Positions 976 to 60,612 of a stretch of DNA of 64,000 nt are shown in pieces (positions within the stretch are counted from its first letter, which is position 1; the number at the start of each line of letters is the position of its first letter). The position numbers and the translations under genes are program-made. The stretch is from Streptomyces sp. P3. GTDB lineage: Bacteria > Actinomycetota > Actinomycetes > Streptomycetales > Streptomycetaceae. The DNA lies in assembly GCF_003032475.1 (NCBI RefSeq), contig NZ_CP028369.1:8494001-8558000 (forward strand), read 5' to 3'. The notes under the pieces were generated by a model. The model saw nothing but the letters and a program-made list of their open reading frames with translations, searched no databases and was not told the origin of the DNA.

Positions 976-1935
976 TCACTCCGGCACCCCCAGCGCACGG
1001 GCGATCATCGGCCAGGAGGCGGTGAACTCCCGTCGCCAGTAGGTCCAGCTGTGTCCTCCTCCCGGGTAGAAGTGGGTGGTGACCGCGACGCCGAGGAGCG
1101 CCAGCGCGCCGGTGAAACCGTGCGCCGAGGGCCACAGCGCGCTCTCCAGCGCCTCCGGCAGCCAGTCGCCGGTGCCGCCGACCACCCCGCTGCCGCTCGA
1201 CACGTACAGGGGAGTGCCCCGCAGTCCGGCCGCCCGGGCCCGCGGGTTGAAGTCGCGCCAGGTCGGGGCGTTAAGGATCGGGTTGCCCCACAGCGACGGA
1301 GGAAGCAGGTTCTCGCGGGCCACGATGGCGTCCACGAGGGGCTGCACCCCGGGGGCGGTGGTGTCGAGGATGCCGCTGTAGGAGGCTGCGGCGGCGAACG
1401 CGCCCGGGTGCCGTGCCGCGTGCGCCATCGCCCCGTAGCCGCCGGTGGAGACCCCGGCGACGGCCCGCACGCCGGAGGCCCGGTAGTCGCGGGCGAGGAG
1501 CGCCGGGACCTCCCGCATCTGGAAGGTCTCGTAGTCGGGGCCGCCGCGCCACGCGGACGGGATGCCGGTGGGGCCCGCGTCGGGCATGGCCACGATCAGG
1601 TCGCGGCCCTCGGTGAAGGCCTCGATGTCCGTCTCCCGGGTCCAGGACGTGTAGTCGTCGTGGGCGCCGTGCAGCAGATACAGCACGGGGTAGGTCCGCT
1701 CGGGCCGGGTGTCGAAGCCGGTGGGCAGGATCAGCCGCAGCGGCGCTCTGCGGCCCAGTGCGGGGGAGGCGACGGAGACGTCGACGGTGCGCGGTCCGAG
1801 CCGGGTCGCGGCACGGTCCGTCGCCGTGGCATGGGCCGTCGTCGTGGCACGGGCGCCGAACAGGGCGGCCAGCCCTGCGGCCGCGGCGGCTTTGGCGGCG
1901 GCGCGTCGGGATGGTCCGGCGGTGCGGTGCGGCAT
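976..1935 (-). CDS. secreted alpha/beta-hydrolase, Ag85/esterase D type
   Basis: The 319-residue protein has a twin-arginine-like signal (RR near residues 10-11, then an Ala-rich hydrophobic stretch ending about AHA36), so it should act outside the membrane. It shows the esterase fold of the Ag85/esterase D family: LYLLHG near 85-90, the nucleophile Ser163 in GVSTGGYG, and a C-terminal catalytic His295 in GGGHSWTYW. Ag85 proteins of mycobacteria transfer mycoloyl groups onto trehalose and arabinogalactan; many Streptomyces relatives are plain esterases. It follows the PKS gene by 9 bp and is the last gene of the operon, so I infer that it processes or transfers the lipid made by that PKS. A general carboxylesterase remains possible. 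Confidence 0.85.
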   Translation of the reverse strand: MPHRTAGPSRRAAAKAAAAAGLAALFGARATTTAHATATDRAATRLGPRTVDVSVASPALGRRAPLRLILPTGFDTRPERTYPVLYLLHGAHDDYTSWTRETDIEAFTEGRDLIVAMPDAGPTGIPSAWRGGPDYETFQMREVPALLARDYRASGVRAVAGVSTGGYGAMAHAARHPGAFAAAASYSGILDTTAPGVQPLVDAIVARENLLPPSLWGNPILNAPTWRDFNPRARAAGLRGTPLYVSSGSGVVGGTGDWLPEALESALWPSAHGFTGALALLGVAVTTHFYPGGGHSWTYWRREFTASWPMIARALGVPE

Positions 1936-1944
1936 GGCGGCTCC

Positions 1945-4900
1945 TCAGTGCGGTTGGGCGGTTCCGCCCGGCGCGGCGAGCAGCTGCCGCAGGTGGGCGG
2001 CGATCTCGTCGACGTGCGGGGGGTCGAGCAGTGACAGGTGGTGCCCCGGGACCGGCACCACTGTCAGATCCGGGCACACGGCGTCCCAGCCGAGGGCCTC
2101 GTCGTCGCGTTCGTAGGCCGGGTCGCGCACCGTGTGCGGTGCCGGCTCGGTGGCCCGGTACAGGACCACGGGACCGTCGTAGCGGCTCGGACGGTGGGCC
2201 TCGCCGATCCGCAGGTCCAGGTAGGAGGCCCGCTGGTGCTCCAGCGCGGCGGACGGCACGTCGGCCGCGGCGCGCAGGGCCCGCAGGACCAGGTCGATGC
2301 GCTCGTGGTCGTCGTCCGTCGCCGCGAGCTCGTCGTAGGGCAGCCGAAGACGGACCCCGTACACGTCTGCGACATGCCGGGTGAACCCCTCGAAGTGCGC
2401 GCGGAGGCGGTCGGCCCGAGCGGGACCGGGCGCCGGGAGCAGCGGGCGCACCGAGTCGATGAGCACGACCAGCGGTACGGTCCGCCCGGCGGCCGTGAGC
2501 AGCCGTGCCGTCTCCTGGGCCAGGAAGCCGCCGAAGGACCAGCCGCCCAGCAGCAGGGGCCCGGCGGGGTGGGCGGCGGTGATCGCCTCGGCGTAGCGGC
2601 GCGCCTTCTCCGGCACGGTGCCGGCCTCCTCGAGCCGTTCCACGCCCAGCACGGGGCGGGCGTCGCCCAGCCGTTCCGCGAGGGTGCGGTAGACGTCGGA
2701 GGTGCCCCCGGCCGCGTGGAAGAGGAACAGCGGCGGGTGCGCGCCGCCGGGGCGCAGGCGGCGCAGGAGGGGCTGCGGCGAAGGGCCGTCCTGCGGCGCG
2801 GGCAGGGCCTGCCGGATGCGTTCGGCCGCTTCGGCGACGTTGGCGGCGCCGAGGAGGTCGCGCAGCGGCAGCTCGATGGCGAACTCGCGCTCCACGGCGG
2901 TGCGGATGCGGACCGCCATCAGTGAGTCGAGACCGAGGTCGGCCAGCGCGGTGGCGGGCGTGATCCGGGCCGTCGGATGACCGGTGACGTCCGCGATGTG
3001 ACGGCCGAGACGGGCGGCGACCGAGGTGGCGCCGTCGGCCTCCCCGACGGGAGCAGGCTCCCCGACGGTGTCCGCGCGCACGGCCGGGTCAGCCTCCCGG
3101 GCAGTGGCAGTGGCAGTGGCAGTGGCAGCGCCAACGGCAGGGGCGGGAACCCGCGCCGCGGGGTCGGCCCATGCGACGGGAGCGGCTCGGCCGGCGGCTG
3201 CGGGCAGGCGGGCCGGTCCGGCGTGCCCCGCCGGGCGGTTCGTCGCGGGCCACGGGGCGCGGGGCCGGCCGTCCGTCCACCAGTGCCGGGTGTGCCGCCA
3301 GCGCGGCGCGGGCACGTCGACGACGCGGCCCGCCGGCGGCGCCAGGGGCAGCCCCGCCGCGTACAGGGAGCCCACCTGCGTGAGGAACGCGGCGGCGCCG
3401 TCCGCGTCGCGACGCAGGGAGCCCACGGCGAGGGCGCCGGGCACGGTCTCGGCGATGGGCCCCCTCAGGACCGGATGCGGTGAGATCTCCACGAACGCGG
3501 TGTGGCCGTCCGCCGCCGCTGCCGCGAGTGCCCGGTCCAGCCGCACCGGGCGACGCAGGTTGGCGGCCCAGTGGGCGGCGTCGAACGCGCAGTCGCCGCG
3601 CGGGTCGTCGAGGACGGTGGAGTAGACCGGCACCTGCGGACGCCGCCCCCGGACCTCGGCCAGCGCCGCGGTCAGCTCCGGCAGCAGCGGATCGACCTGG
3701 GACGAGTGCCCGGCGCCGGTCACCCGCATCACCCGCGCGACGCGTCCCTCCGCCTCGAGCCGGCGCACGAGCCCGCCGACCGCCGACCCCTCCCCGGTAA
3801 CCACCTTCTGCCTCGGCGAGGAGTGGACGGCGATCTGAACGCCGGGGAAGTCCCCCTGCAGGGCGGCGAGTTCGGCGTCGTCCACCTCGACCACGGCCAT
3901 CGCGCCGCCCCGCAGCCCGCTCAGCAGCCGGGCCCGTACGGCGATGACCCGGGCGGCCTCGGGCACTTCCAGCACGCCCGCGCAGACGGCGGCGGCCACC
4001 TCGCCCATCGAGTGGCCGATCACCGCAGCCGGTTCCACCCCGTACGCGCGCCACGCCTCGGCGAGCGCGACCTGCACCCCGAACAGCACGGGCTGGGCGA
4101 TCTCCAGGCAGTCCAGGGGGTCTTCGGAGGTCAGCCGGTCGTGCAGGGAGAACCCGCACTCCCCGGCGAGCTGCGCGTCGAGCTTCTCCACCGCGGCGGC
4201 GAACACCGGTTCCTCGGCCAGCAGCCGGCGTCCCATGCCGGGCCACTGGCCGCCGTATCCGGAGAACACCCACACCGGGCCGCGCCCGACGAGATCACGG
4301 TCACCGGTCACCGTGCGCGGGTGCGGGCGGCCCTGCGCCAACGCAACCAGGGCGTCGGCGAGTTCCTCCCCGTCGTGGGCGGCCACCGCGGCCCGCACGG
4401 GGCCGCGTCCGGTGCGTCCGGCGAGCGTACGCGCCACGTCAGCCGGGCGGACCGCCCTGCCCTCCGGCGTGCGGAGCCACGCGGCCAGCCGGCCCGCGGT
4501 GTCCCGGACCCGCTCGGCGTCGACGTCGGACAGCAGATGCAGCCGGGCGGCCGGCTCCTCGACCGGCCACGGGAGGACGTCGGGCCGCCATTCCTCCAGC
4601 ACCGCGTGGGCGTTGGAGCCGCTGAAGCCGAAACCCGAGACGCCGGCGGTGGCCGTGCCGCCGTAGCGGGGCCACGGCTCGGGCTCGGTCACCACCCGCA
4701 GCCGCGCCTCGCCCACGGCGCTCGCGTGCGTGCAGTGCAGGGACGGCGGGATCAGGTCGTGGTGGAGTGCGAGGACCGTCTTCACCAGCCCGGCGAGGCC
4801 CGCCGCGGCCTCCAGATGGCCGAGGTTGCCCTTGACCGAGCCGAGCAGCAGGGGTTGTTCGGGGTCGCGGCCCGCCCCCAGCACCGCGTCCAGCGCGCCC

Positions 4901-6198
4901 GCCTCGATCGGGTCGCCGAGCGGGGTGCCCGTGCCGTGCGCCTCGACGTAGTCGACCTGCGCCGCGATCATCCCGGCCCGCCCGTACGCGGTCGTCAGCA
5001 GGGCCTGCTGCGCCGCGGGGTTGGGGGCCAGCAGCCCGTTGGAGCGGCCGTCGGAGTTGACGGCGGTGGCCCGTACGACGGCGAGGACACGGTCGCCGTC
5101 GCGCTCGGCGTCGGAGAGCCGCTTCAGGAGCACGGCCGCGCAGCCCTCGCCGCGGCCGATGCCGTCGGCCGCAGCGGAGAACGGCTTGCAGCGCCCGTCC
5201 GGCGCGAGGGCGCCCGCCTGTCCGAACGCGACGCCGACGACGGGTGACAGGAGCAGGTTGACCCCGGCGACGACCGCCGTGTCGCTCTCGCCGGTGCGCA
5301 GACTGACGCAGGCGTGGTGCAGGGCGACCAGGGAGGACGAGCAGGCGGTGTCGACGGCCATGCTCGGCCCTCGGGTGTCGAGCGCGTAGGCGAGCCGTCC
5401 AGCCGTCACACTGAGCGCCGCGCCGGCCGGCGCCCAGGGGTCGACGGCCGCCGCGTCGGCACCGGTGAGCTGTCCGTACTCCGCGGCACTGACGCCGACG
5501 AAGACGCCGGTGGCCGTGCCGGCGAGCGCGGCGGCCGGCACCGCGGCGTGGTCGAGCGTCTCGCGGACCACCTCCAGGAGGATCCGCTGCTGCGGGTCCA
5601 TCACCGCGGCCTCACGCGGGGTGACCCGGAAGAAGTCGGCGTCGAATCCGGCCACGTCGTCGAGGTAGCCGCCGTGCGTCGGTGCGTCGTCCGGCGGGAA
5701 CGCGGCGAAGTCACGCCAGCGGTCCGCCGGGACCCGCCCGATCGCGTCGACGCCGTCGCACAGCAGCCGCCAGTAGCCGGCCGGCCCGCGCACCCCGCCC
5801 GGCAGCCGGCACCCCACCCCGATGACCGCGACGGGCTCGCCGAGCCCCGCCGGGACACCGGCCGCGACCGCCGAGGGAGCATGCTCCGCGGAGGTGTCCC
5901 GCACGGTGGTGGGCTGCGCCGCCGCCGCGCACAGGTGCGCCACCAGCGCCTCCACGGTGGGCGCCTCCCAGAGCAGCGTCGCGGGCAGCTCACGGCCCGT
6001 CAGCCGGGACAGCTCCCCGGCCAGCACGACGGCGTCCCGCGAGGACATCCCGAGGTCGGCCAGCGGCACGTCCATGGGCAGGTCCGCCGGCCCGTCGGCC
6101 GGCCCGTCCGCAGGCGCGGCGTCCGCGAGCCCGCCCTGCCAGGCGGTCACCCGGTCCGTGATCAGCCGGCGCAGCGCCTCCTCGTCGACGGCCCTCAT
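1945..6198 (-). CDS. Pks13-like polyketide synthase, ACP-KS-AT-ACP-TE
   Basis: The start ATG at 6198 overlaps the stop of the acyl-AMP ligase by four bases (ATGA), giving about 1417 residues. Domain order is: N-terminal ACP (carrier Ser near 53 in DLGMSSRDAV), ketosynthase (Cys near 286 in DTACSSSL, His near 421 in EAHGTGT, His near 461 in GNLGHLE), acyltransferase (Ser near 730 in GHSMGE), a low-complexity Ala/Pro/Thr linker, a second ACP (Ser near 1092 in LGLDSLMA) and a thioesterase (Ser near 1221 in GGWSFGG, His near 1387). No KR, DH or ER is present. This is the exact layout of Pks13, which joins a FadD32-supplied acyl chain to a carboxyacyl chain. Pks13 is longer (about 1730 residues). 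The product here is unknown; a 2-alkyl-3-oxo lipid is the natural inference. Confidence 0.92.
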   Translation of the reverse strand: MRAVDEEALRRLITDRVTAWQGGLADAAPADGPADGPADLPMDVPLADLGMSSRDAVVLAGELSRLTGRELPATLLWEAPTVEALVAHLCAAAAQPTTVRDTSAEHAPSAVAAGVPAGLGEPVAVIGVGCRLPGGVRGPAGYWRLLCDGVDAIGRVPADRWRDFAAFPPDDAPTHGGYLDDVAGFDADFFRVTPREAAVMDPQQRILLEVVRETLDHAAVPAAALAGTATGVFVGVSAAEYGQLTGADAAAVDPWAPAGAALSVTAGRLAYALDTRGPSMAVDTACSSSLVALHHACVSLRTGESDTAVVAGVNLLLSPVVGVAFGQAGALAPDGRCKPFSAAADGIGRGEGCAAVLLKRLSDAERDGDRVLAVVRATAVNSDGRSNGLLAPNPAAQQALLTTAYGRAGMIAAQVDYVEAHGTGTPLGDPIEAGALDAVLGAGRDPEQPLLLGSVKGNLGHLEAAAGLAGLVKTVLALHHDLIPPSLHCTHASAVGEARLRVVTEPEPWPRYGGTATAGVSGFGFSGSNAHAVLEEWRPDVLPWPVEEPAARLHLLSDVDAERVRDTAGRLAAWLRTPEGRAVRPADVARTLAGRTGRGPVRAAVAAHDGEELADALVALAQGRPHPRTVTGDRDLVGRGPVWVFSGYGGQWPGMGRRLLAEEPVFAAAVEKLDAQLAGECGFSLHDRLTSEDPLDCLEIAQPVLFGVQVALAEAWRAYGVEPAAVIGHSMGEVAAAVCAGVLEVPEAARVIAVRARLLSGLRGGAMAVVEVDDAELAALQGDFPGVQIAVHSSPRQKVVTGEGSAVGGLVRRLEAEGRVARVMRVTGAGHSSQVDPLLPELTAALAEVRGRRPQVPVYSTVLDDPRGDCAFDAAHWAANLRRPVRLDRALAAAAADGHTAFVEISPHPVLRGPIAETVPGALAVGSLRRDADGAAAFLTQVGSLYAAGLPLAPPAGRVVDVPAPRWRHTRHWWTDGRPRAPWPATNRPAGHAGPARLPAAAGRAAPVAWADPAARVPAPAVGAATATATATAREADPAVRADTVGEPAPVGEADGATSVAARLGRHIADVTGHPTARITPATALADLGLDSLMAVRIRTAVEREFAIELPLRDLLGAANVAEAAERIRQALPAPQDGPSPQPLLRRLRPGGAHPPLFLFHAAGGTSDVYRTLAERLGDARPVLGVERLEEAGTVPEKARRYAEAITAAHPAGPLLLGGWSFGGFLAQETARLLTAAGRTVPLVVLIDSVRPLLPAPGPARADRLRAHFEGFTRHVADVYGVRLRLPYDELAATDDDHERIDLVLRALRAAADVPSAALEHQRASYLDLRIGEAHRPSRYDGPVVLYRATEPAPHTVRDPAYERDDEALGWDAVCPDLTVVPVPGHHLSLLDPPHVDEIAAHLRQLLAAPGGTAQPH

Positions 6199-7946
6199 CC
6201 CGCGCTCCGCGCCCCGTAGACGCCCTCCAGATACCGGGTGCGGGTCAGCGCCCGCGACACCTTGCCACTGGACGTGCGGGGCACCGCGCCCGGGGGGACG
6301 AGGACGACGTCGGCGAGCCGCAGCCCGTGCCGGGCGGAGACGGCCGCGCGCACGGCCCGCGCCAGAGCAGGCACGTCGATCTCGTCGAGGCGCGCGGTCC
6401 GCGCGTGCTCGGCGACGAGCACCACCCGCTCGCCCTCGCCCTCGCCGCGTCGGACGCCCGGAACGCCGAAGGCGGCGAGCCGGTCGCGTCGCACGGCCGG
6501 ATGCGCGTCCTGGGCGGTGCCCTCCACGTCCTGCGGGTAGTGGTTGCGGCCGTCGACGACGATGAGGTCCTTCAGCCGTCCGGTGACCGTCAACTCCCCT
6601 TCCAGCAGTGTCCCCAGGTCGCCGGTGCGCAGCCAGCCGCCCGGGACGCCGGCGAGTTCGGCGCCGAACACCCGTCGGCTCTGCGGCCCGTTGTTCCAGT
6701 AGCCCCGGCCCACGTTGGGGCCCTGCACCCATATCTCCCCGACCTCTCCCTCGGAAAGGGCCGTGCGGGAGACGGGATCGACGATGCGGACCTGCTGGTC
6801 CACCGGAGCGCCGCAGCCCGTCAGCAGCACGGCGTCGGCGTCGTCCGGCCCGGCCGGCAGGGCCTTTCCGGCGGCGAGGGCGTCCCGGTCCAGGGTGAAC
6901 CGGCGCAGCGGCTCGCCGGGAGCGGACGCGCTGACGAAGACGGTGGCCTCGGCGAGCCCGTACGACGGACAGTGCACGTCGGCCGCGAGCCCCTGGGCGG
7001 CGAACGCGGCGTGGAAGCGGTCGGCGGTGCCGGGCCGCACCGGTTCGCTGCCGTTGACCAACGCGACGACGCCGTCCAGCCGGAGGTCCGCCTTCTGCGC
7101 GTCCGTGACGGCGGTCGCGCAGTACTCGTAGGCGAAGTTCGGCGCCGCGCTCACCGTGCGCGGATGCGCGGCGAGCAGTCGCAGCCAGCGGGCCGGTTCG
7201 TGCAGGAACGCGGCCGGGTCCATGAGGACCGACAGATGACCTCCGACGACCGGAGCCGCGACGCTCAGCACGAGCCCCATGTCGTGGTAGAGCGGCAGCC
7301 AGCCCACGCACGTCACCGGACGCGTGTCGGCGCCGTAGGCGGTGAGCGCCTGACGGGCGTTGGCGACCACGTTGGCGTGGGTGATCTCGACCCCCGCCGG
7401 CGCGCGGGTGGAACCGGAGGTGTACTGCAGATAGGCGGTCGCCCCGGCGTCCGACGCCGCGGGCGGCGCAGTCCCGGCAGCCGCGCCGGACCCCGGGTCC
7501 GCGGCGATCACCGACACCGGCCACCGCCGGCAGAAGGCCTCCACCTCCTCCAGGACGTGGCCCGAGGTCACCACGACCTCGGGGCGCGCGTCGGCCAGGA
7601 CGCCGGCGAGCCGGTCCGCGTGTCCGGCCAGGCCCGGCGGGTACAGCGGCACGGCGACCATCCCCGCGCTCAGCGCCGCGAGAAAGGCGGTGACGTAGTC
7701 CGTTCCCTGCGGGCACAGCAGCGCGACCCGGGCCCCCGGCCCGGCCTGGCCGGCGAGCCGGTCCGCGAGCGCGCGCACCCGCCGGTCCAGGCCCTGCCAG
7801 GTCAGGGTGCGGTGCACGCCGCGCGAGCTCGCGGCGGGATGGTCGACGAAGGTGAACGCCCGGCGGGCGGGAGTGGTTTCGGCCCAGTGGCGCACGTACT
7901 CGGGCAGAGTCCGGTACGCGGGTACGAGCGGGGGGCGGCTGTCCAT
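6195..7946 (-). CDS. fatty acyl-AMP ligase, FadD32-like
   Basis: This 583-residue adenylate-forming enzyme carries the FAAL hallmark YTSGSTRAPAGV at about 174-186; FadD32-type ligases share the STR-x-PAG form. WLPLYHDMGL, NGSEPVR, SYGLAEAT, GWLRTGDLG and a C-terminal RTSSGKVSR with the catalytic Lys near 561 are all present. FAALs activate a fatty acid as acyl-AMP and load it on a carrier protein rather than on CoA. The gene overlaps the PKS start by four bases, so the two are translationally coupled and the partner is almost certainly the PKS N-terminal ACP. The ATG at 7946 is used because no closer start fits the N-terminus of the family. Chain-length preference cannot be read from sequence. 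Confidence 0.93.
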   Translation of the reverse strand: MDSRPPLVPAYRTLPEYVRHWAETTPARRAFTFVDHPAASSRGVHRTLTWQGLDRRVRALADRLAGQAGPGARVALLCPQGTDYVTAFLAALSAGMVAVPLYPPGLAGHADRLAGVLADARPEVVVTSGHVLEEVEAFCRRWPVSVIAADPGSGAAAGTAPPAASDAGATAYLQYTSGSTRAPAGVEITHANVVANARQALTAYGADTRPVTCVGWLPLYHDMGLVLSVAAPVVGGHLSVLMDPAAFLHEPARWLRLLAAHPRTVSAAPNFAYEYCATAVTDAQKADLRLDGVVALVNGSEPVRPGTADRFHAAFAAQGLAADVHCPSYGLAEATVFVSASAPGEPLRRFTLDRDALAAGKALPAGPDDADAVLLTGCGAPVDQQVRIVDPVSRTALSEGEVGEIWVQGPNVGRGYWNNGPQSRRVFGAELAGVPGGWLRTGDLGTLLEGELTVTGRLKDLIVVDGRNHYPQDVEGTAQDAHPAVRRDRLAAFGVPGVRRGEGEGERVVLVAEHARTARLDEIDVPALARAVRAAVSARHGLRLADVVLVPPGAVPRTSSGKVSRALTRTRYLEGVYGARSAG

Positions 7947-7992
7947 CGGGCGTGGCTCCTCACATCACGGTGCGGCCGGCGGGTCGGGCGGA

Positions 7993-9561
7993 TCAGAGCG
8001 GGATGTTGCCGTGCCGGCGCTCCGGCATCGGGGCGCGCTTGCCGCGCAGCGCACGCAGCGCGCGGCACAGCTGCGCACGGGTGTCCCGGGGGGCGATGAC
8101 GGCGTCGACGTATCCGCGCTCGGCGGCGGGGTACGGGGTGCCGTGGACGGACTCGTACGCGGCGACGAGACGGGCCCGCAGCGCCTCGGGGTCGGCGGCG
8201 GCGGCCAGCTCACGCCGGTGCAGCACGCCGACGGCGCCCTCCGCGCCCATGACGGCGATCCGCGCCGTGGGCCAGGCCAGGTTGAGATCGGCGCCCAGGT
8301 GCTTGGAGCCCATCACCGCGTACCCGCCGCCGTACGCCTTGCGCACCACCACCGTGACCTTCGGCACCGTCGCCTCGGCGTACGCGTACAGCAGTTTGGC
8401 GCCGCGCCGGATGATGCCGGCCCGCTCCTGGTGGACGCCGGAGAGATAGCCGGGGACGTCGGCGAAGGTCACCAGCGGGATGCCGAACGCGTCGCAGAAC
8501 CGCACGAACCGGGCGGCCTTCTCGGAGGCGTCGATGTCGAGGACGCCGGCGGCGTGCAGCGGCTGGTTGGCGACCACGCCGACACTCGCGCCCTCGAGCC
8601 GCGCCAGCGCGCAGACGATGTTCGGTGCGAACAGCTCCTGCACCTCGAGCAGTTCACCGTCGTCGACGACGGCCCGCAGGATGTCGCGCATGTCGTAGGC
8701 CTGATCGGTCCGGTCGGGCACCACCTCGTCGAGCCCGGCCCCGCCGGGGGCGGGCGCGGTCGCGTACTCCGGGGGCCGCGCGAGGTTGTTGGCCGGCAGG
8801 TACGACAGCAGGTCGCGGACGATGTCGAGGGCGTCCTCGTCGTCGGCGGCGAGGAAGTGGGCGTTGCCGTTGACGGAGTTGCTGGCCCGGGCGCCGCCCA
8901 GCTCCTCCGCGGTGGCGCGCTCGCCGGTGACCGCCTCGATGACGTCGGGCCCGGTGACGAACATGTGCGAGACACCGTCCACCATCACCGTGAAGTCGGT
9001 GATGGCCGGCGAGTACGCGGCCCCGCCCGCGCAGGGCCCGAGGAGGACCGAGATCTGCGGGATGACCCCCGACGCCTTCACGTTGCGGCGCACCAGCTCG
9101 GCGTAGAGGGCGAGCGAGGCGACACCCTCCTGGATGCGGGCGCCGCCGGAGTCGTTGAGCCCGACGACCGGACAACCGGTCTTCAGCGCGAGGTCCATCA
9201 GGGCCACCGTCTTCTCGCCGAAGGCCTCGCCCATGCTGCCGCCGAAGACGGTGGAGTCCTGCGCGAACACACAGACGGGACGTCCGTCGACCGTGCCGTA
9301 CCCGGTGACCACCCCGTCGCCGTCGGGCCGGCGGGCGCCGTCCCCCGTCGGCCGGGCCCGGACGAACAGGCCGGTCTCGGTGAAGGAGCCCTGGTCCACG
9401 AGCCGTTCGATCCGCTCCCGCGCGCCGAGCGCTCCGCGTCTGCGCGGCGGTACCGTCACCGCGGCCTGTTCCTGACGGCGCGCCAGGCCGGCGATGCGTG
9501 CGGCGGTGCCGTCCGCCGAACCGGTCATGGTCGCCTGGGGCGTTGTCGCCTCTCGCGTCAC
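7993..9561 (-). CDS. acyl-CoA carboxylase beta subunit (carboxyltransferase), AccD4/PccB type
   Basis: The 522-residue protein is a complete carboxyltransferase: GGSMGEAFG near 108-115, NDSGGARIQEGV near 136-147, AGGAAYSPA near 178-186 and the typical end RRHGNIPL. It would move CO2 from a biotinylated alpha subunit, encoded elsewhere, to an acyl-CoA. GGAGG at 9567-9571 overlaps a GTG at 9567 but is spaced 5 nt from the GTG at 9561, so the latter is preferred. At residue 415 (GGGYAVMGSKHLG) it has Ala where propionyl-CoA carboxylases have Asp (AYDVM) and acetyl-type ones Ile. It is the first gene of the operon, 46 bp before the acyl-AMP ligase, and by analogy with AccD4 probably makes the carboxylated extender for the PKS. 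Confidence 0.9.
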   Translation of the reverse strand: MTREATTPQATMTGSADGTAARIAGLARRQEQAAVTVPPRRRGALGARERIERLVDQGSFTETGLFVRARPTGDGARRPDGDGVVTGYGTVDGRPVCVFAQDSTVFGGSMGEAFGEKTVALMDLALKTGCPVVGLNDSGGARIQEGVASLALYAELVRRNVKASGVIPQISVLLGPCAGGAAYSPAITDFTVMVDGVSHMFVTGPDVIEAVTGERATAEELGGARASNSVNGNAHFLAADDEDALDIVRDLLSYLPANNLARPPEYATAPAPGGAGLDEVVPDRTDQAYDMRDILRAVVDDGELLEVQELFAPNIVCALARLEGASVGVVANQPLHAAGVLDIDASEKAARFVRFCDAFGIPLVTFADVPGYLSGVHQERAGIIRRGAKLLYAYAEATVPKVTVVVRKAYGGGYAVMGSKHLGADLNLAWPTARIAVMGAEGAVGVLHRRELAAAADPEALRARLVAAYESVHGTPYPAAERGYVDAVIAPRDTRAQLCRALRALRGKRAPMPERRHGNIPL

Positions 9562-9849
9562 AGCCACCTCCGAAAGTGGTTCTCGAATATGGCAGCGATG
9601 CCGCTGAGGCCCCCGGTGATCGCCTTCGCGTTTGCGTGAGATGAGTCCCGGCGGGCGCGGCTTCGTCCTGTCGTGACAAGCAATCGCCGACCGGGCCCCT
9701 TCCGTCGCCCGCCCGCCGGGTGCTTCTTCGTGCGTTCAGGTCGCGCCCCGGTCGTTCCCCGGGACCCGGGCCTGGGATAGGGTCCCCCCGGTTCCGGCCG
9801 CGGATCGACGACGCGCCGGTATGGGGAGTGCCAAGGGGGCGGCAGAGCA
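9562..9849. other. divergent intergenic region, lipid operon / P450
   Basis: These 288 bp separate the start of the carboxyltransferase gene (minus) from the P450 gene (plus) and must hold both promoters. The part next to the carboxyltransferase (about 9575-9690) is slightly less GC-rich than the surroundings. I could not identify a confident -35/-10 pair or an operator here. Confidence 0.5.
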
Positions 9850-16800: not shown

Positions 16801-17617
16801 CCGCTCCGGTCAGTGCCGGCGCGTGGAAGGCGCCGACGACCACGGCGGCCCGCTCGCCGTGCGCGGTGGCCTCGGCGATCCGCGACCGCATCCACCGCTC
16901 CCGCCGCAGGTCCAGCTCCGCAACCCCGCCCCCGGCGGCCGCCTCCTCGCGCAGCGCCCACCCGGTCAGCAGGGCCGCCCGGCGCAGCGCCTCGGGCTGT
17001 GAGCCCGGCGCGGCGGCCTCGACGAGCCGGTCCCACAGATCGTCCCCGGGGCGGCCGGTGAGCCCGGCCCGCAGCGCGCCGGTCAGCCCGAGTGCCTCGC
17101 CCTGCGCCGTGCCGCCGCGCCCCTCGCCCCACGCCCGGTCCGTGAGCGGCAGATCGCAGGCGATCAGCGGGACGCCGCGCCCGGCGGCCCAGCGCACGGC
17201 GGCCAGCTCCGGCGAGAAGTCGGCGAACGGGTAGAACGCCGGGCCGGCGCCTCCCCGTCCGTCGCCGGGTGCGGCGGCGAGCGCGACGGGGGCCCGGGTC
17301 TCCTCGTGTCCGAGCCAGCCCAGCCACTCCTGCATCTCCGCAGGCAGTTCCACGAGCACCACGTCCGGCCGCGCCGCGTCCAGCAGCGCGGGCACGGCGG
17401 CGGCCAGCGAGGGCGCGTGGTGCCGTACGCCGATGAGAAAGGGCGCGGCGGAGTCGGTGAGGACGGCGAGAGCCTCGCCGGGGGAGCCGATGTTGTTGAC
17501 GGAACCGAGGGGAGCGCGGGAGCCGGCGGAGCCGGGCAGGTCCGGAATGCCCGCGGAGTCCGGAAGGCCCGCGGCGTCCAGGCCGTCTGCGGTGGGGTGG
17601 AGGGACACGGTCGTCAC
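13853..17617 (-). CDS. DUF5682 protein fused to a C-terminal vWA (CoxE-like) domain
   Basis: A single frame of 1254 residues. The N-terminal half contains the DUF5682 hallmark FLIGVRHHAPSLA and LVELPAEM, and later AAVVVGAFHAPAL. The last 160 residues form a von Willebrand A domain with an intact MIDAS start (DVSGSM, Asp near 1099) and FSTEVIDLTG, VGGGTHIAAGL and VVSDFEEG. In E. coli the two parts are separate proteins (YehM, YehP); here they are one. The GTG at 17617 overlaps the stop of the MoxR gene (GTGA); a second in-frame GTG at 17608 sits at better distance from GGAGG and could be the real start. vWA proteins paired with MoxR ATPases act as substrate adaptors in metal-dependent chaperone systems; the target here is unknown. 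Confidence 0.85.
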   Translation of the reverse strand: MTTVSLHPTADGLDAAGLPDSAGIPDLPGSAGSRAPLGSVNNIGSPGEALAVLTDSAAPFLIGVRHHAPSLAAAVPALLDAARPDVVLVELPAEMQEWLGWLGHEETRAPVALAAAPGDGRGGAGPAFYPFADFSPELAAVRWAAGRGVPLIACDLPLTDRAWGEGRGGTAQGEALGLTGALRAGLTGRPGDDLWDRLVEAAAPGSQPEALRRAALLTGWALREEAAAGGGVAELDLRRERWMRSRIAEATAHGERAAVVVGAFHAPALTGAALAEGGGDTEGRAEERRAGTERCDGTSSTDGGRDGDTAGRGAAWITSLVPYTYALLDERSGYPAGIRDPQWQETVLRAAGDPAALEEALVRAAVRICAELRGLGHPSGPADAREISRLASDLARLRGLPAPGRGELVEAVQTVLAQGEPYGRGRAVARAMERVLVGSRTGRPAPDAPRCGLAPAVEAETAALGLPGPQDGAGAARDLRLDPLRSDLDRRRELLLRRLTVCGVPYGEAKEVVGAGGAQALTSRWEVRWTPATAAMLTAAGVRGVTAAQAAEGVLRERLRTEREEGGSTAAQVLRGLAEAAECGLPVLADERLDDIAEVLPQVGTLPGLLAGLALSDRLRAGHVPGLGADEARTARAAAVAELLTSAAVRQVDGLTGSEDPADAHALLELAHRADLLGGVRLTDALARLAAGGSPLMRGAAGAVRVLLGQEDARAFGDRVASWVDGAVDPDSRSALTARLSGLLTAAGPLLEAAEPALTPLLDRVAALPDREFLDRLPALRGGFETLSPAARDRLLASVEERLGVRHIGDTQGVDPVALAVWAEADLVARDALRTLGLLPAIDVDGGAPPAAEAAPAPAAVAPDHAAGSVPHPAGGEEAASREEGRRLAADDRWRLVLGRRADRLPASARSLATALDELYGSGRGEGSRGDLTGPGTGGGREAPYPGAREWSQELAALFGPGIREEVLAAAAAAGRKDVLAELDADGVRPSVELLQTVLRHAGGLPEARLAALRPLVRRLVEELTRELATRLRPALHGTALPRPSRRPGGGLDLPRTLRANLTTARRGPDGVVRVVPERPVFRSRARRAADWRLILVTDVSGSMEASTVWAALTASVLAGVPTLSTHFLAFSTEVIDLTGHVADPLSLLLEVSVGGGTHIAAGLRQARELVTVPSRTLVVVVSDFEEGYPLGGLLAEVRALVGSGCHVLGCASLDDTGRPRYSTGVAGQLVAAGMPVAALSPLELARWVGEKIA

Positions 17618-18801
17618 CCCTCCAGGGCCGTGCGCAGGTCCCACAGGGTGCGCCAGGTGGCCGACCCCTGCTCGGCCCGGCGTCGGACGGGCCCGTCCCA
17701 GTAGCCGCGCAGCCGGGCCGCGTCGGCGGGGTCGTCCTTGCGGACCACACCCAGCAGATGGCCCGGCAGCAGGCCCAGCACGTCCCGGTCCCCGGGGAAG
17801 TAGGCCGCGGCGAGGGCCAGCGCGCCCGCGACGGACACCGCCTCCGCGGTGCTCATCACGGTGGACGGCCGCTCCACCTCCCAGCCCTCCGCCGACCGGC
17901 CCTCCCGCAGGTCGCGGAAGGCGGTGACCAAGGCCTCCAGCACCGCGTCGTCGACCTGGAAGGGCGCGCCCGCCCGCTCCACCGAGGCCCGCGCCTGGCT
18001 GCGCACCAGCGCGGTCTCCGCGTCGAGGTCCGGGATCGGGCCGACCGTCTCGAAATTGAAGCGACGCTTGAGGGCCGCCGACATCTCCGACACGCCCTTG
18101 TCCCGCAGGTTGGCCGTGGCGATGAGGTTGAAGCCGGGTGCGGCATGAGCCAACGCGTCGCCGGTGCCGGCCAGTTCGGGAACGGCCATGCGCCGCTCGG
18201 ACAACAGGGAGACCAGCGAGTCCTGCACCTCCGGCAGGCACCGCGTGACCTCCTCGACGCGCGCGATGGCGCCCCGGGACATGGCGGTCAGCACCGGCGA
18301 CGGCACCAGCGCCTGCCTGCTCGGTCCCTGCGCCAGCAACAGGGCGTAGTTCCAGCCGTACTTGAGCTGGTCCTCCGTCGTGCCCGCGGTGCCCTGCACG
18401 ACCAGGCCGCTGGTGCCGCACACAGCGGTGGACAGCAGCTCGGACAGCATCGACTTGGCGGTGCCGGGCTCGCCGACGAGCAGCAGCCCGCGCTCGCCGG
18501 CGAGCGTCACCACACACCGTTCGACCAGCGCACGGTCGCCGACGAACTTGCCCTCCACCGTCATCCGGCGCGACACCCCTTCGGGCGTCTCCGCGTCGTC
18601 GGGGAGCTTCAGGGCACGGCCCGCGCTGCCCATGACGAACGTGACCACCGCACGTGGGGTGAGCCGCCAGGCGGGCGGCCGCGGCCCGTCGTCGTACGCG
18701 GCGAGGAAGGCCAGCTCGGCGGCGTACCGGTCCTCGGGCGGGACGATCTGGCGGACCGGGTCGGCGGGCGGGGCGGGGGAGGACGGGGCGGTGACGGTCA
18801 T
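17614..18801 (-). CDS. MoxR-type AAA+ ATPase
   Basis: A 395-residue AAA+ protein with Walker A GEPGTAKS at 110-117 and sensor-like NLIATANLRDKG. The Walker B region reads AIARVEEVTRCLPEVQ, with VEE in place of the usual DEE, while the following ..SLLSERRMAVPE is typical of MoxR proteins. MoxR ATPases work with vWA partners in remodelling or metal insertion. Such a partner is encoded directly downstream with a GTGA overlap. E. coli YehL is the equivalent protein in the similar yeh region. The ATG at 18801 is 34 bp after the stop of the large upstream gene and is preceded by a purine-rich GGAAGAG-type site. Confidence 0.9.
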   Translation of the reverse strand: MTVTAPSSPAPPADPVRQIVPPEDRYAAELAFLAAYDDGPRPPAWRLTPRAVVTFVMGSAGRALKLPDDAETPEGVSRRMTVEGKFVGDRALVERCVVTLAGERGLLLVGEPGTAKSMLSELLSTAVCGTSGLVVQGTAGTTEDQLKYGWNYALLLAQGPSRQALVPSPVLTAMSRGAIARVEEVTRCLPEVQDSLVSLLSERRMAVPELAGTGDALAHAAPGFNLIATANLRDKGVSEMSAALKRRFNFETVGPIPDLDAETALVRSQARASVERAGAPFQVDDAVLEALVTAFRDLREGRSAEGWEVERPSTVMSTAEAVSVAGALALAAAYFPGDRDVLGLLPGHLLGVVRKDDPADAARLRGYWDGPVRRRAEQGSATWRTLWDLRTALEG

Positions 18802-18835: not shown

Positions 18836-21800
18836 TCATCGGCGACGGCCCTTGCGGGTGGCGCGGGTGGTGAGCTCCTCGTAGGCCGGGGCGTCGCCGG
18901 CGCGGACGCGTTCCCACGCCCGCGTGAACAGCTCGGGCACCGGCGCCGGCGGCACGGCGCGCCCGTAGGCGGGAATCGGGTAGAGCCCCTTCTTCCAGAG
19001 CTCCACCGGCAGCGCCGGGGACCTGAGGTCGAGCCAGCCGCAGGGCAGGAACAACGTGCGCCCGGCGCGCGCCCGCTTGGCCTCGACGACCAGACCGCTC
19101 GCCGCCAGTTCGGCGCGGGCCCGTTTCGTCCGGGCCGGCTTCCAGCCGGTCCAGCGGACGCAGTTGCGGTCCGTGGGGTCCGGCAGTGCCAGCAGCTGGA
19201 GGTAGAAAGCCGCCGCGTCCTCGCCCAGCCCGTGGTGCGCCGCGACCTCGGCGACCAGCTCGGGTGCGCCGACGGTCGGGTCCTGGGCGTACCCGGGAGT
19301 CCCCGCGGGGTCGGCGCCGGCCGTGACCGCGCGGGTGAGATCCTCGTCGAGGAGGGTCCGCAGCGCCCGCATGCCGTGCCCCCGGCCCTCGCCGACGAGC
19401 CCCTCCACCAGGCCGAACACCGGGTCGTCGGGGGTGCGCAGCGCGCCCGGCCGGACCAGCACGGTCTCCCGTTCGCCGTACCAGGGGCGCAGCACCAGCG
19501 CCTCGCCCACGTGCGTCAGACCGTGCGCGTCGGCGCCGCCCACGGCCGGCAGCCCGTACGCCTTGCGCAGTTCGACGGCGGTCGAGGACCCCGTGTCCGT
19601 CCATGCGACGTCCAGGTCCAGCAGCAGCTGCGGATCGGCGAAGCGGCGCCGCAGTGCGGCGAGAGCCCCCGGCAGGAGCGCCCGCAGCGGGTGCGCGTAC
19701 GGCAACGAGTAGGCGAGGCCGGCCAGCGCGGCCACGGCCCGGGTCAGCTCGCTGCGGCCGGGCAGCGCCGCCGGGTCCTCCGCGACGAGGTTGCCGTCCT
19801 TGTCCGGCCGCTGGACGGTGGTGCGGCTGATCCAGGGGGTGCGCCCCGGGTTGAGGACCTCCTCCACCGAGCCGGTGGGCAGCCCGGCGAGCGAGAGCTC
19901 CCCGGCGAGGTCCTCGGGCAGCCGGACGACTCCGCCCAGCCGCTCGGCCCACTCCCGGCCGGCCGCCCCGATGTCCGGTCCGGCCGTCCACAGGTCGCCG
20001 GGATTCCCCGGCAGCAGCGCGCCGACCAGCGCCATCCGGTCGGCGGTGCCCACCGAGGACAGCAGGGCGTCGCCCAGCTCCTTCTGACGCGGCTTCAGTC
20101 CGGTCGCGGCGATCACCTCCGCCGTGAGCGGGACCGGTCCGCCGGCGATCACCAGGGCAGCCTGCATCGGTCCCAGCCCCCCGCCCGTCGCGTCGGCGAG
20201 TGCGGCGGGAGCCCCCGGCTGCCAGGGCGCAGGGCCCTTGTCCCGGACGAGTGCGGTGACCGCGCTCAGCGCCTCGGCGGGGAACACCGCAGGGTGCGCG
20301 GTCTCCTGCGTCAGGGTGAAGTGGGCGATCGCGCCGAAGGTGCCGCCCGGGTCGTGGTCCAGGGCGAGCCAGCGCACCTGTCCGGACTGCCGGTCGACGT
20401 TCTGGCAGCCGAGCACCACGACGGTCCGGCCGTCCCGGCGCAGGACCTGTCCGACCCGCTCCTGCTTCTCGTGCGGTTCGCTCAGCACGACTTCGCGCAG
20501 GACGCCGTCGGCCGCGGCGAGCGGCCCGTCCGCGACCGCCTCGCACAGCAGGAGCAGCGCCTCGCGGTGCGCCTCGGTCACCGTCGGCGAGGCGGCGCGG
20601 TAGGCGAGCGGTCGCAGCACGTCCAGCAGCGGCGTCCACATCAGGCCGATGCCGGGAACGGTGAACTCGTCGCTGCGCCATCCGTCGGCGGCGCCGGCGG
20701 ACCGGGCGGCCTCGCGCAGCGGTGTGCCGTCGGCGGGCTTCCCGGACAGCACGTGGTTGACCGAGCGGATCTGACGCAGTGCGCTCCAGCGCAACTCGCT
20801 GCCCCACCACCCGTGCGTGTGGGCGAGCCCCGCCGTGGCCTCGCGCAGCGTCTGGTCGTCACCGTGCTCGGGCTCCAGGTCGGCGTACATGCCGAGGACG
20901 CGTCGGCTCTGCGCCTTCGGCCGGTCCACCGGCGGCGCCACGAACGAGGCGGTCGACCCCGCGAGCCGCAGGACCGCGCGCAGCAGCGCGGCGACGCCCG
21001 TGGCGATTCCGGGGGCCTCCAGCGACGGCAGACAAGCGACCACGACCTGCTGAAGGACTTCGTCGGCGGACGGGACGGCGGCCTGTGCGTCCGTGGTCCC
21101 GTCGACCGCGCCGGCCGCCGCCAGCGCCTCCCGCCGTTGCGCCAGCGCCTCGGCCCCGGCCCGCACCAGGCCGGCCGCCTGCTCGTCGGTCAGCGCGCGC
21201 AGCACGGCCGACGCGGCCTCGTCGCGCGGGCGCAGCGCGTGCCAGAAGTCGACCGGCGGGACGAACCGGGTGCCGGCGGCGAACTCGCTGCCGCGCTCCA
21301 TCGGCGTCACCCGGCCGAGCTCACCGGCCGCGGCCGGGCCGTCGCCCGCGTACAGGGCGACCTGCCGGTGCAGGCCGACGGCCACCGGCTCGGCGCCGCC
21401 CGGCAGGCGCAGCGCGCCGAGCAGATCACCCGGCGCCCGCCCGTCGGCCCAGGGAAGGGCGACGGTCCGTCCGTCCGGCGTCCCGGCGACCGTGCGTGCC
21501 TCGGCGCCCTCGCCCTCGGTGCGCACCCAGCGCCCGAGAACCGTGCCGTCCGTGCCGAACGGACTCTGTTCCAGGCCCGGTTGCAGCGGCAGCACCTGGC
21601 ACAGGTCCTGGCGCAGGGTCGCGTCCTCCCGGATGCCGGACTGCAGGAACGCGGGCAGCGAGGCACGCCCGTGCGTGCCGGTGGCCGGGTCGTACTCGAG
21701 CCACACCTGCTGCCGGCCCTGCCTGCCCTGGCGCCACAGGGAGACACCGTCGCCGAGGACGCGCCGCCCGGCCGGCAGGACGGTGTCGCCGGCATGCAGG

Positions 21801-23845
21801 GTGCGCCCGCCGGTGGCCCGGCCGCCGCCGGGCAGCGGGATCGACGGGGCGCCGGCGTCGGAGCCGCCGTACCAGTAGTGGGGGATCTGCTCGCCGCCGA
21901 GCGGGAACACGTCGGCCGGGCGGGCGGACCAGTACCCGAACTGCTTGCCGTCCTGCCGCCACATCACCAGCAGTTCGCCGTCCGTGTAGCGGAACGCCGG
22001 ACGCTGCCACCGGTCCGGCTCCACGGGCAGCCGCAGGTCGTGCTCCAGCAGGATCTCCTGCGGGCCGACGACGAACACCTTGTGCTCGCGCGAGACGATC
22101 AGCGCGGGCCACGCCTCGTGGACGGTCATCGGGTTGTCGTGGTCGCGGCCCGGCCGGGTCTCGGCGTCGAGTCGGCGCAGTGCCTCGTCGAGCGCGGGCC
22201 AGCCCAGTTCGTCGAGGATGCCTGCCCGCAGCGTGTGTCCGAGCAGGGGGGCGACCTCGTGGGCGGCGACCGCGGCCACCGCCGCCGGGCTCACCCGGGC
22301 GGCCACCGCGCGGAAGGGACGCAGCCGTTCCAGCGCGGCCCGTGCGGCGGGCAGGCCGACCGCCGCCGTCAGTTCCGCGGCCGCGTCCTCCAGCCACTCG
22401 CGCAGGACGTCGCCGAGCACGGGGTGCGCGGCCAGGCCGTCCAGCACCCCGTCGGCGATCCGGTGGTCCTTGAGGGTGCCGATGTCGGTGTACAGCAGAC
22501 GCCGCATGCGCGGATCGGCCGCCATCGCCGCCAGGTCGCGCCGTTCGGGACCGGGCCTGCCGATCCAGTCGTCCAGGGAGAGGAAGACCACCTCGTTGGG
22601 GCCGGGCAGCGTCAGCGGCACGCCCTGCGCCACGCACAGGTCCAGCAGGTCCACCTCGGCGCCGGACCGCCAGCGGCCCGTGCACAGGTCCACGGGACGG
22701 CCCCGCCCGCGCAGGTGCGGCGCCATCCGCTCGACGAGGGCGAGGGTCGCCGGGGAGCGGCCGCTGACGTTCCCGCCGTGCTTGCGGTGCAGCGCCCAGC
22801 GGCCGAGCCAGTCCGCCGCGTCCACCTCGGCCGCCGTCTCGCCGGTGAGGAGCAGGTCGGCGCCGCACTCCGCGAGCAGCGCCAGCCAGAACTCGTCGTC
22901 CTCGACCGAGCGGCCCAGGCCGACCGGCATGATCTCCAGCAGACGCCCGCGCACCTCGGGCCGCTGCCCGGCGAGGACGGCGAGTGTCGGCCGGTAGGCG
23001 TTCCAGAAGGACGCGGGGGCCCGGACCGCCGCCGGCGAGGCGAGCAGGTCGGCGACCAGGGCGCACTCCTCGGCGACCCGGTCGAGACCGGCGGCCTTGA
23101 TCAGCCCGCGCGCGTCCTGCGGCAGCGAGGCGTAGGGCGGCATGCCGGCCGCGCAGCGCTCCACGGTCAACTGCCGGAACTGCGCCCAGGCCGCGGCCGG
23201 ATCGAGCCGCGCGGCGAGCGCCTTGACGTGCTCCTTGAGCGCCTTGACGGTCAGCGCCCCCGCGAAGGCGAACTCCAGGAACACGGCCCGCTGCCGCTCC
23301 TCGTCGACCGCCAGCGCGTGGACCCGCTCCGCCTCGCGGGCCTTGCCGAAGAACGCGGAGGCGTACGTCGTGTTCTCGTACTGCAGGAAGACGCGGGCCG
23401 CCTGCTCGTAGAAGGTGGGCAGGAAGTGCGGCACGGCCCGGCCGAGCCGGGCGCCGAGCTCCTCGAAGCCGTCCTTGGCGGTGCCGGGACGGGACTTGGC
23501 CTGCCGTGCGAGCCGCTCGACGTCCTTGACCAGCGCCAGCGCGTGGTGCCCGTTGGCCGGGTCGTTGACCAGCGCCCAGGCGGGGAAGCCGAGCGTCTCC
23601 CGGCGCACCTGACCGACCTCGGGTGTCTCCGTCCGGCGGGTCAGCCCGAGGAAGTCCAGAGCGAGGTCCTCGGCGTCGCCGAGGGTGTCCGGCACGAGCC
23701 GCACGACCGTCCGGTCGCCCAGAACGGGATGGGTGTACGAGCGGACCGTGAGAGTGTCGGCGTCCTCGCGGACCGTGCTGCCCGGAGGCAGGACGGCGCC
23801 GGCGTCGAGCAGCGTGGCCGCGGTGGCCTCGTCGTAGGTCGTCAT
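18836..23845 (-). CDS. very large uncharacterised protein of the MoxR-vWA operon (1669 aa)
   Basis: I do not recognise a defined domain in this 1669-residue protein. It begins MTTYDEATAATLLDAG, is Ala/Leu-rich with long helical stretches, has a beta-rich centre (several W/Y-containing motifs such as WDWIGRPG-like and FRYTDGELLVMWRQDGKQ), and ends with a basic region after CVRWTGWKPARTKRARAEL and the tail ATRKGRRR. Its ATG overlaps the stop of the DUF4132 gene (ATGA), and the MoxR gene follows after 34 bp, so it belongs to the operon. No transmembrane segment or signal peptide is visible, so it is probably cytoplasmic. The basic C-terminus could contact nucleic acid, but that is a guess. Confidence 0.75.
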   Translation of the reverse strand: MTTYDEATAATLLDAGAVLPPGSTVREDADTLTVRSYTHPVLGDRTVVRLVPDTLGDAEDLALDFLGLTRRTETPEVGQVRRETLGFPAWALVNDPANGHHALALVKDVERLARQAKSRPGTAKDGFEELGARLGRAVPHFLPTFYEQAARVFLQYENTTYASAFFGKAREAERVHALAVDEERQRAVFLEFAFAGALTVKALKEHVKALAARLDPAAAWAQFRQLTVERCAAGMPPYASLPQDARGLIKAAGLDRVAEECALVADLLASPAAVRAPASFWNAYRPTLAVLAGQRPEVRGRLLEIMPVGLGRSVEDDEFWLALLAECGADLLLTGETAAEVDAADWLGRWALHRKHGGNVSGRSPATLALVERMAPHLRGRGRPVDLCTGRWRSGAEVDLLDLCVAQGVPLTLPGPNEVVFLSLDDWIGRPGPERRDLAAMAADPRMRRLLYTDIGTLKDHRIADGVLDGLAAHPVLGDVLREWLEDAAAELTAAVGLPAARAALERLRPFRAVAARVSPAAVAAVAAHEVAPLLGHTLRAGILDELGWPALDEALRRLDAETRPGRDHDNPMTVHEAWPALIVSREHKVFVVGPQEILLEHDLRLPVEPDRWQRPAFRYTDGELLVMWRQDGKQFGYWSARPADVFPLGGEQIPHYWYGGSDAGAPSIPLPGGGRATGGRTLHAGDTVLPAGRRVLGDGVSLWRQGRQGRQQVWLEYDPATGTHGRASLPAFLQSGIREDATLRQDLCQVLPLQPGLEQSPFGTDGTVLGRWVRTEGEGAEARTVAGTPDGRTVALPWADGRAPGDLLGALRLPGGAEPVAVGLHRQVALYAGDGPAAAGELGRVTPMERGSEFAAGTRFVPPVDFWHALRPRDEAASAVLRALTDEQAAGLVRAGAEALAQRREALAAAGAVDGTTDAQAAVPSADEVLQQVVVACLPSLEAPGIATGVAALLRAVLRLAGSTASFVAPPVDRPKAQSRRVLGMYADLEPEHGDDQTLREATAGLAHTHGWWGSELRWSALRQIRSVNHVLSGKPADGTPLREAARSAGAADGWRSDEFTVPGIGLMWTPLLDVLRPLAYRAASPTVTEAHREALLLLCEAVADGPLAAADGVLREVVLSEPHEKQERVGQVLRRDGRTVVVLGCQNVDRQSGQVRWLALDHDPGGTFGAIAHFTLTQETAHPAVFPAEALSAVTALVRDKGPAPWQPGAPAALADATGGGLGPMQAALVIAGGPVPLTAEVIAATGLKPRQKELGDALLSSVGTADRMALVGALLPGNPGDLWTAGPDIGAAGREWAERLGGVVRLPEDLAGELSLAGLPTGSVEEVLNPGRTPWISRTTVQRPDKDGNLVAEDPAALPGRSELTRAVAALAGLAYSLPYAHPLRALLPGALAALRRRFADPQLLLDLDVAWTDTGSSTAVELRKAYGLPAVGGADAHGLTHVGEALVLRPWYGERETVLVRPGALRTPDDPVFGLVEGLVGEGRGHGMRALRTLLDEDLTRAVTAGADPAGTPGYAQDPTVGAPELVAEVAAHHGLGEDAAAFYLQLLALPDPTDRNCVRWTGWKPARTKRARAELAASGLVVEAKRARAGRTLFLPCGWLDLRSPALPVELWKKGLYPIPAYGRAVPPAPVPELFTRAWERVRAGDAPAYEELTTRATRKGRRR

Positions 23846-24696: not shown

Positions 24697-24818
24697 GCGT
24701 GCCTCCCGCACCCGCAGTGATCAAGTGACGGGAACTGTAGAGGAGGCCACTGACAACGGGCCCGTACGGGCGTCGACCTGGGGAAAGAGCCCGGTGAAGG
24801 GGCTTGCGGGCGGTCGGG

Positions 24819-60541: not shown

Positions 60542-60612
60542 GCGACCTGCGAACCGAGAACACTGCTCCGCGGGGCACTGCGGGGCAGAACACTGCTCAG
60601 GAGGCGAAGACC

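Follow-up and report, generated by a model that had tools for sequence, protein, structure and literature searches.

The 64-kb window analysed here (positions 8494001-8558000 of the single-contig, 9.85-Mb genome of Streptomyces sp. P3) carries a four-gene block encoding a carboxyltransferase (CT), a fatty acyl-AMP ligase (FAAL), a type I polyketide synthase (PKS) and an esterase of the Ag85 fold. Judged by their sequences, the ketosynthase (KS) of the PKS, the FAAL and the CT are sisters, not members, of Pks13, FadD32 and AccD4, with which mycobacteria condense a pair of fatty chains to mycolic acid. The conservation of the block in many Streptomyces suggests that these bacteria produce a related waxy lipid that has not been seen so far. 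On balance we lean towards an operon that follows Pks13 logic to make a mycolate-like lipid and put it in place, in a chain of five steps taken as a whole; the first three by themselves, namely extender supply, loading of the N-terminal acyl carrier protein (ACP) and Claisen condensation, we regard as probable.

The block consists of the following genes and domains, where AT denotes acyltransferase and TE thioesterase:

7993-9561, minus strand: CT, sister of AccD4 (PF01039, 611.7 bits)
6195-7946, minus strand: FAAL, sister of FadD32 (YTSGSTRAPAG at residue 175)
1945-6198, minus strand: type I PKS of 1417 aa, ACP-KS-AT-ACP-TE by Pfam
5923-6177 (approximate bounds), minus strand: N-terminal ACP domain, with GMSSRD at residue 50, a motif common to Pks13 and relatives
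4576-5838, minus strand: KS domain (ketoacyl-synt N and C), with DTACSSS at 283, HGTGT at 421 and GHLE at 460
3355-4275, minus strand: AT domain (Acyl_transf_1), with GHSMGE at 728, Arg755 and GAGH at 828-831
2815-3009, minus strand: C-terminal ACP (PF00550), with GLDSL at 1089
1987-2733, minus strand: TE domain (PF00975, 84.4 bits), with Ser1221, Asp1248 and His1387 placed by alignment to the Pks13 TE
976-1935, minus strand: Ag85-fold esterase, predicted to be exported (PF00756), with Ser163-Glu264-His295, HSWTYW and a Tat-like SRRAAAK at residue 9

Open reading frames (ORFs) and Pfam confirmed all four minus-strand genes named in the first-pass annotation, including its GTG start for the CT at 9561, which suits the GGAGG at 9571-9567 better than does the start of the longer ORF at 9567. 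Pfam likewise bore out the proposed PKS architecture, recovering two PP-binding stretches, KS, AT and TE and detecting no ketoreductase (KR), dehydratase (DH) or enoylreductase in the window PKS. From right to left the order is CT, FAAL, PKS, esterase and a PucR-type regulator, followed by a cutinase outside the window. A gap of 46 bases separates CT and FAAL, FAAL and PKS overlap by 4 bases, and 9 bases lie between PKS and esterase; given this overlap and the 9-base gap, at least FAAL, PKS and esterase look translationally coupled.

We scanned one genome per species (84,980 species), confirmed 483 loci and kept the best 80 of these 483. Of the 80, 66 are Streptomyces-family loci (L009-L073 and L088; the record of L064 reads 'Actinobacteria bacterium'). 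The other 14 (L074-L087) are more distant and come from Amycolatopsis, Lentzea, Streptosporangium and kin, with L082 from a Streptomyces. The trees sample only sequences fetched for this analysis. In the 76-row KS tree (L157 dropped as too short or absent), a clade with support 100/99 holds 45 rows: the window family (17), 14 relatives, a second PKS of the P3 genome, the PKS of G284 and 12 Pks13. Eight modular KSs of the P3 genome and 23 other mycobacterial-group KSs fall outside it. Inside it, the 12 Pks13 form a 100/100 clade of their own that does not include the window KS. A wider tree, with 13 PKS sequences added from another actinomycete family (added row L258 duplicates L170) and ten rows removed as long branches or near copies, kept the grouping of Pks13 with the window at an SH-like approximate likelihood-ratio (SH-aLRT) support of 91; seven of the 13 added rows fell inside, one duplicating that of G284. 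By sequence, Pks13 is one part of this clade, which amounts to a broader PKS family and not a Pks13-only group. Just outside it sit L145 (G290, a mycobacterial-group PKS) and L267 (another family).

The best NCBIfam model for the window PKS is mycolic_Pks13 (NF040607), with 1165.4 bits summed over several stretches and short of the equivalog cut-off of 2100 bits, and the best PDB match is Pks13 (813 bits). Among 394 genomes of the class, 34 have a Pks13 above that cut-off, and these 34 belong to a single family; the P3 genome enters this survey through its second PKS, which bears a KR and scores 1014.8 bits in one stretch, and not through the window PKS. Two motif signatures, derived here with no curated source and common to KR-bearing relatives too, accompany the grouping. 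The GxSSRD signature of the N-terminal ACP is common to the window PKS, Pks13 and relatives, and G[LM][SA]SR was found in 65 of 66 Streptomyces-family ORFs, in 41 of 42 Pks13-locus ORFs (a figure in which some genomes count twice) and, with variants, in all 14 relatives. At the AT motif, 63 of 65 Streptomyces-family matches read GAGH, 42 of 44 Pks13-locus matches GASH or GAGH, and 14 of 14 relatives xAGH; small residues at this position accompany bulky extender units. GA[GS]H occurred in none of the 23 mycobacterial-group KS-locus matches and eight modular loci of the P3 genome, 11 of these matches having no readable motif, four of them from truncated Pks13 loci. The seven matches from the added family gave one GAAH, three VASH, one VAFH and two unreadable motifs. 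The TE residues Ser1221, Asp1248 and His1387 were invariant in a nine-row alignment. The Pks13 KS residue Asp264, reported in the available part of PMC13324839, was discarded as a discriminator: it belongs to the DTAC motif present in most KSs compared here.

The FAAL, which bears the STR-x-PAG motif reported in the first-pass annotation, scored best against FAAL models (PRK05850, 549 bits; PRK12476, 540 bits; FadD32, 496.9 bits), the best model named for a CoA ligase being PRK07768 at 296 bits; the FadD32 score lies under the cut-off of 975 bits for that model (NF038339). A 56-row FAAL tree (L077, L078, L085 and L206 dropped as too short or absent) united the FadD32 side, made up of 12 FadD32 and five other mycobacterial-group FAALs, with the window and its relatives in a 42-row clade (100/97). 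The branch joining the 25 rows of window and relatives is itself weak (89/59), and five rows above the PRK05850 cut-off fall outside the joint clade.

The 49-row CT tree gave a corresponding result: 19 rows of window and relatives joined the AccD4 side in a 33-row clade (98/94), in which 12 AccD4 and two further rows form a 100/100 group that excludes the window CT. The rows that we named 'PccB-like' and 'AccD5-like' by likeness lie outside. At residue 417 (in the reading from the 9567 start), which corresponds to D422 of ScPccB, the window CT has Ala. Ala occupies this pocket position in 19 of 19 CT rows of the family and relatives and in 12 of 12 AccD4 rows; of the two remaining rows in the AccD4 group, one has Ala and the other Gly. 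Elsewhere, the PccB-like CT of the P3 genome has Asp, two other CTs of this genome have Ile, and AccD5-like rows have Cys or Asp. Tree and pocket residue together contradict the raw-score reading of this CT as a plain PccB. KS, FAAL and CT each form joint clades with Pks13, FadD32 and AccD4, and do not cluster with unrelated FAAL-PKS systems. The description of the locus as a mycolate-condensation-like operon therefore stands as a statement of how it works, not of what the proteins are, since each is a sister group, and PKS and FAAL miss the model cut-offs.

The proposal of a secreted Ag85-fold esterase was also borne out, with export predicted from sequence: the protein matches PF00756, carries a Tat-like leader and has C. 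glutamicum PS1, a mycoloyltransferase, as its best PDB match. It has a Ser-Glu-His triad and HxWxYW (HSWTYW) on the Ag85 fold, shares 25-32% identity with Ag85 and the corynebacterial mycoloyltransferases, from which its Tat-like leader distinguishes it, and its model is nearest to mycoloyltransferases, and nearer to Ag85 than to feruloyl esterases. The triad columns remain invariant when a generic esterase of the P3 genome is aligned and do not discriminate for mycoloyltransferases. Of 57 esterase N-termini, 46 fit the crude Tat pattern, in some cases ahead of the probable start, and we apply it to the window protein only. The esterase tree leaves the origin of the enzyme unsettled; its likeness to mycoloyltransferases comes from the model.

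Comparison of the locus across Streptomyces, proposed earlier as a check, found CT, FAAL, PKS and esterase in the same order and strand in all 54 Streptomyces-family loci with enough flank, which rules out a chance neighbourhood of four genes. In 12 of 12 comparisons (four genes against three relatives), the amino-acid difference was smaller than the four-fold-site difference, a crude measure. Two further genes accompany the block:

2-853, continuing past the window edge, minus strand: PucR-type regulator, 413 aa in the genome (PF13556 on L121:15612-16853)
L121:14859-15500 (genome about 8492859-8493500), left of the window: cutinase (PF01083)

The regulator was present in 55 of 55 and the cutinase in 52 of 53 loci with enough flank; a second method missed the cutinase in L040 and L049. 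A convergent, exported-looking neighbour of 573-591 aa was found in 48 of 66 loci (copies at L121:7722-9497 and L010:17182-18903); the 591/573-aa protein had no Pfam match, and the L010 copy matched nothing in the PDB. Leaving aside this neighbour, the cutinase and the block itself, no called gene family recurred in more than 11 of the 66 loci. The flanking P450 (near four of 66 loci: L018, L038, L063 and L064) and mycothiol-transferase (near one of 66, L064, and partly) were rejected as parts of the operon. The whole operon occurs twice, in divergent copies, in each of two genomes, S. xylophagus (L039/L040) and Streptomyces sp. SID12488 (L049/L065); the copies are of about 73% and 60% PKS types.

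The steady presence of the cutinase behind the regulator raises the idea of a plant-polymer module, in which a PucR-controlled cutinase would release long-chain cutin or suberin acids, from which FAAL and PKS would build a surfactant or coat, with the esterase as a second polymer hydrolase. The cutinase Sub1 of S. scabies is suberin-induced according to the available text of PMC7104285, which fits this idea; the S. scabiei gene beside the locus could not be shown to be Sub1, the accessible literature giving no usable locus link. A cutinase also occurs at a mycobacterial-group Pks13 locus and, together with MmpL and PucR, at L083 and L084, and the esterase model lies on the Ag85 side of feruloyl esterases, so we give this explanation very little credence.

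Distribution bears on another alternative. In an even draw of 199 Streptomyces genomes, the esterase had matches of at least 55% identity in 27 (79-100% in 21, P3 included, and 55-59% in six more), while 33 other genomes had matches of 39-45% only, a second type. Such patchy occurrence is usual for secondary metabolism, and the block might make a diffusible metabolite, the TE hydrolysing the chain, which would then lose CO2 to give a long-chain ketone or cyclise, with esterase and cutinase acting elsewhere. Free beta-oxo acids of this type do decarboxylate to ketones (PMC2568869, available part), an MmpL gene lies near just one of 66 Streptomyces-family loci, and the wider KS clade also takes in KR-bearing PKSs. 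Against this stand the strict coupling with the predicted exported Ag85-fold enzyme (54 of 54 loci) and the absence of any visible tailoring gene set among the recurrent neighbours counted above. We consider a diffusible metabolite unlikely.

The mycolate-like reading that we favour would proceed as follows. The CT, presumed to supply the 2-carboxyacyl-CoA extender, would act with biotin carboxylase subunits encoded elsewhere to carboxylate an acyl-CoA longer than propionyl-CoA. The FAAL, from its family the presumed loader of the N-terminal ACP, would adenylate a second fatty acid and transfer it to that domain. The AT would charge the C-terminal ACP with the 2-carboxyacyl unit, and the KS would carry out one Claisen condensation; with the domains found and no reducing domain among them, the predicted product is a 2-alkyl-3-oxo acyl chain. 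The TE would then hand the chain to an acceptor, much as the TE of Pks13 uses trehalose, since a product released as the free acid would decarboxylate. Finally, an unlinked transporter would export the product, and the secreted Ag85-fold enzyme would move the chain to its final cell-surface acceptor. According to the available text of PMC2568869, M. smegmatis without mycolate reductase still exports 2-alkyl-3-oxo chains and esterifies them to the wall; such chains are degraded by base, the free acids turning into ketones. These findings indicate that an unreduced lipid is viable in principle and could be overlooked by alkaline mycolate tests.

The lack of reduction within the PKS can be placed in an evolutionary context. 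A KR was present in all 14 distant relatives, in the second PKS of the P3 genome and in the G284 PKS, and was found in none of the 66 Streptomyces-family loci (six matches end before the C-terminal ACP) and none of the 12 Pks13 loci. The stretch between AT and TE (L086 left out) spans 111-171 aa in seven Streptomyces-family PKSs, 343-484 aa in the 12 Pks13 and 693-1115 aa in 15 of 16 KR-bearing PKSs; that of the window PKS measures 171 aa and contains a single ACP motif. In M. tuberculosis Pks13 this stretch contains a half-dehydratase devoid of catalytic activity, together with an inactive ACP (PMC11649247, available part). We read these lengths as descent from a DH-KR-bearing ancestor, with Pks13 a partly stripped and the Streptomyces PKS a fully stripped form. 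In a concatenated 40-row tree, the Streptomyces family is nested among KR-bearing rows (SH-aLRT 98), which implies two KR losses; the approximately unbiased test did not reject a single loss, with p 0.236 for joining the Streptomyces PKS and Pks13 and p 0.235 for joining all KR-bearing rows. The first-pass statement that the window contains no keto-reductase holds for the operon and not for the whole stretch: a short-chain dehydrogenase/reductase lies at 60538-61359, about 50 kb away and with no evident link to the operon.

Several observations weigh against the mycolate-like reading. The highest PDB sequence score of the CT, 691 bits, is to S. coelicolor PccB, compared with 496 bits to the AccD4 chain. 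This score also speaks for a short-branch lipid, in which the CT would make methylmalonyl-CoA, so that a 2-methyl-3-oxo fatty acid would result in place of a two-chain mycolate-like lipid. The tree that joins the window CT with AccD4 and leaves PccB-like and AccD5-like rows outside, the change of the pocket Asp to Ala as in AccD4, and the GAGH of the AT, compared with YASH in three of eight modular AT matches of the P3 genome, argue against it; YASH marks methylmalonyl ATs. We judge a short-branch product quite improbable. The pocket residue has its own limit: according to the available part of PMC7835884, Asp or Ile affects acyl-CoA choice and is not the sole determinant, and that part does not treat Ala or long chains at this position.

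Further points on the same side concern the other proteins and the product. NF040607 also matches the KR-bearing second PKS of the P3 genome, so likeness to this model is not specific, and the G284 PKS, inside the KS clade, has GAAH instead of GA[GS]H. The window PKS differs from Pks13 in having no pseudo-dehydratase and inactive ACP stretch. The distant relatives carry a KR and sometimes a DH, so the product need not be the same. In the midpoint-rooted esterase tree (55 rows; L170, L243, L247 and L251 dropped as too short or absent), 26 of the 27 rows that come from Pks13-bearing genomes fall on one side; the window family lies on the other, with relatives, two other esterases of the P3 genome and the 27th row. 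As noted, the fetched flanks of the 66 Streptomyces-family loci contain an MmpL gene in one case; the P3 genome has 31 MMPL stretches, none within the 64-kb window. The available text of PMC6194230 restricts mycolates to Corynebacteriales and Ag85 genes to mycolate-positive species. Product, chain lengths, acceptor and export are all inferred.

Two sets of loci invite direct comparison. The fadD32-pks13-accD4 cluster of Corynebacteriales shares with the block a FAAL, a KR-less ACP-KS-AT-ACP-TE PKS and a CT, joint clades for these three proteins, and the ACP and AT motifs; at one such locus (L158), Ag85-family (PF00756) and cutinase genes also lie nearby, as at the Streptomyces block. It differs from the Streptomyces order of CT, FAAL, PKS, esterase, PucR and cutinase, which has no linked reductase or MmpL. 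The L158 cutinase (L158:3541-4548, 60.4 bits) lies immediately before fadD32, and we take it to be Rv3802c/Culp6. The Streptomyces cutinase query reached none of the 12 Pks13 loci at E 1e-10, which indicates that the two kinds of cutinase are distant. The KR-bearing loci L074-L087 share the KS clade and the xAGH motif with the block, and carry a FAAL in ten of 14 (one partial), a CT in three, an esterase in 12 and the same PucR family in nine; they differ in the KR, the occasional DH and an MmpL gene nearby in six of 14.

With the sister cassette in Streptomyces and its KR-bearing relatives in further actinomycete groups, the origin of Pks13 can be studied against concrete outgroups; how the mycobacterial envelope arose is treated as open in the available part of PMC6194230. 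The open-access titles and abstract openings listed held no report of a Pks13-type locus in Streptomyces, subscription journals lying mostly outside this coverage. If the reading is right, a lipid has been overlooked in a genus that is well studied and easy to handle. A bolder version, which we put forward tentatively and hold to be possible at best, is that an envelope lipid with the architecture of mycolates is native to many Streptomyces in the unreduced 2-alkyl-3-oxo form and has escaped notice because mycolic acid tests use alkaline hydrolysis, which converts such lipids to ketones, and that the cassette is a surviving cousin of the one that founded the mycomembrane, in-module ketoreduction having been lost along both lines.

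Two other regions of the genome drew attention. A second Pks13-like system lies outside the window at 8984787-9022879 (L129, L119 and L120). It comprises an Ag85-type esterase (8984793-8985677), a FAAL (9000113-9001822), the KR-bearing PKS that comes after the FAAL, in an open frame that covers about 2.7 kaa and ends at 9008583, and an MmpL gene (9020723-9022879). Within the window, a 1962-aa ORF without a clear Pfam family (18836-24724, minus strand) adjoins a MoxR-like AAA protein (17614-18801, minus strand).

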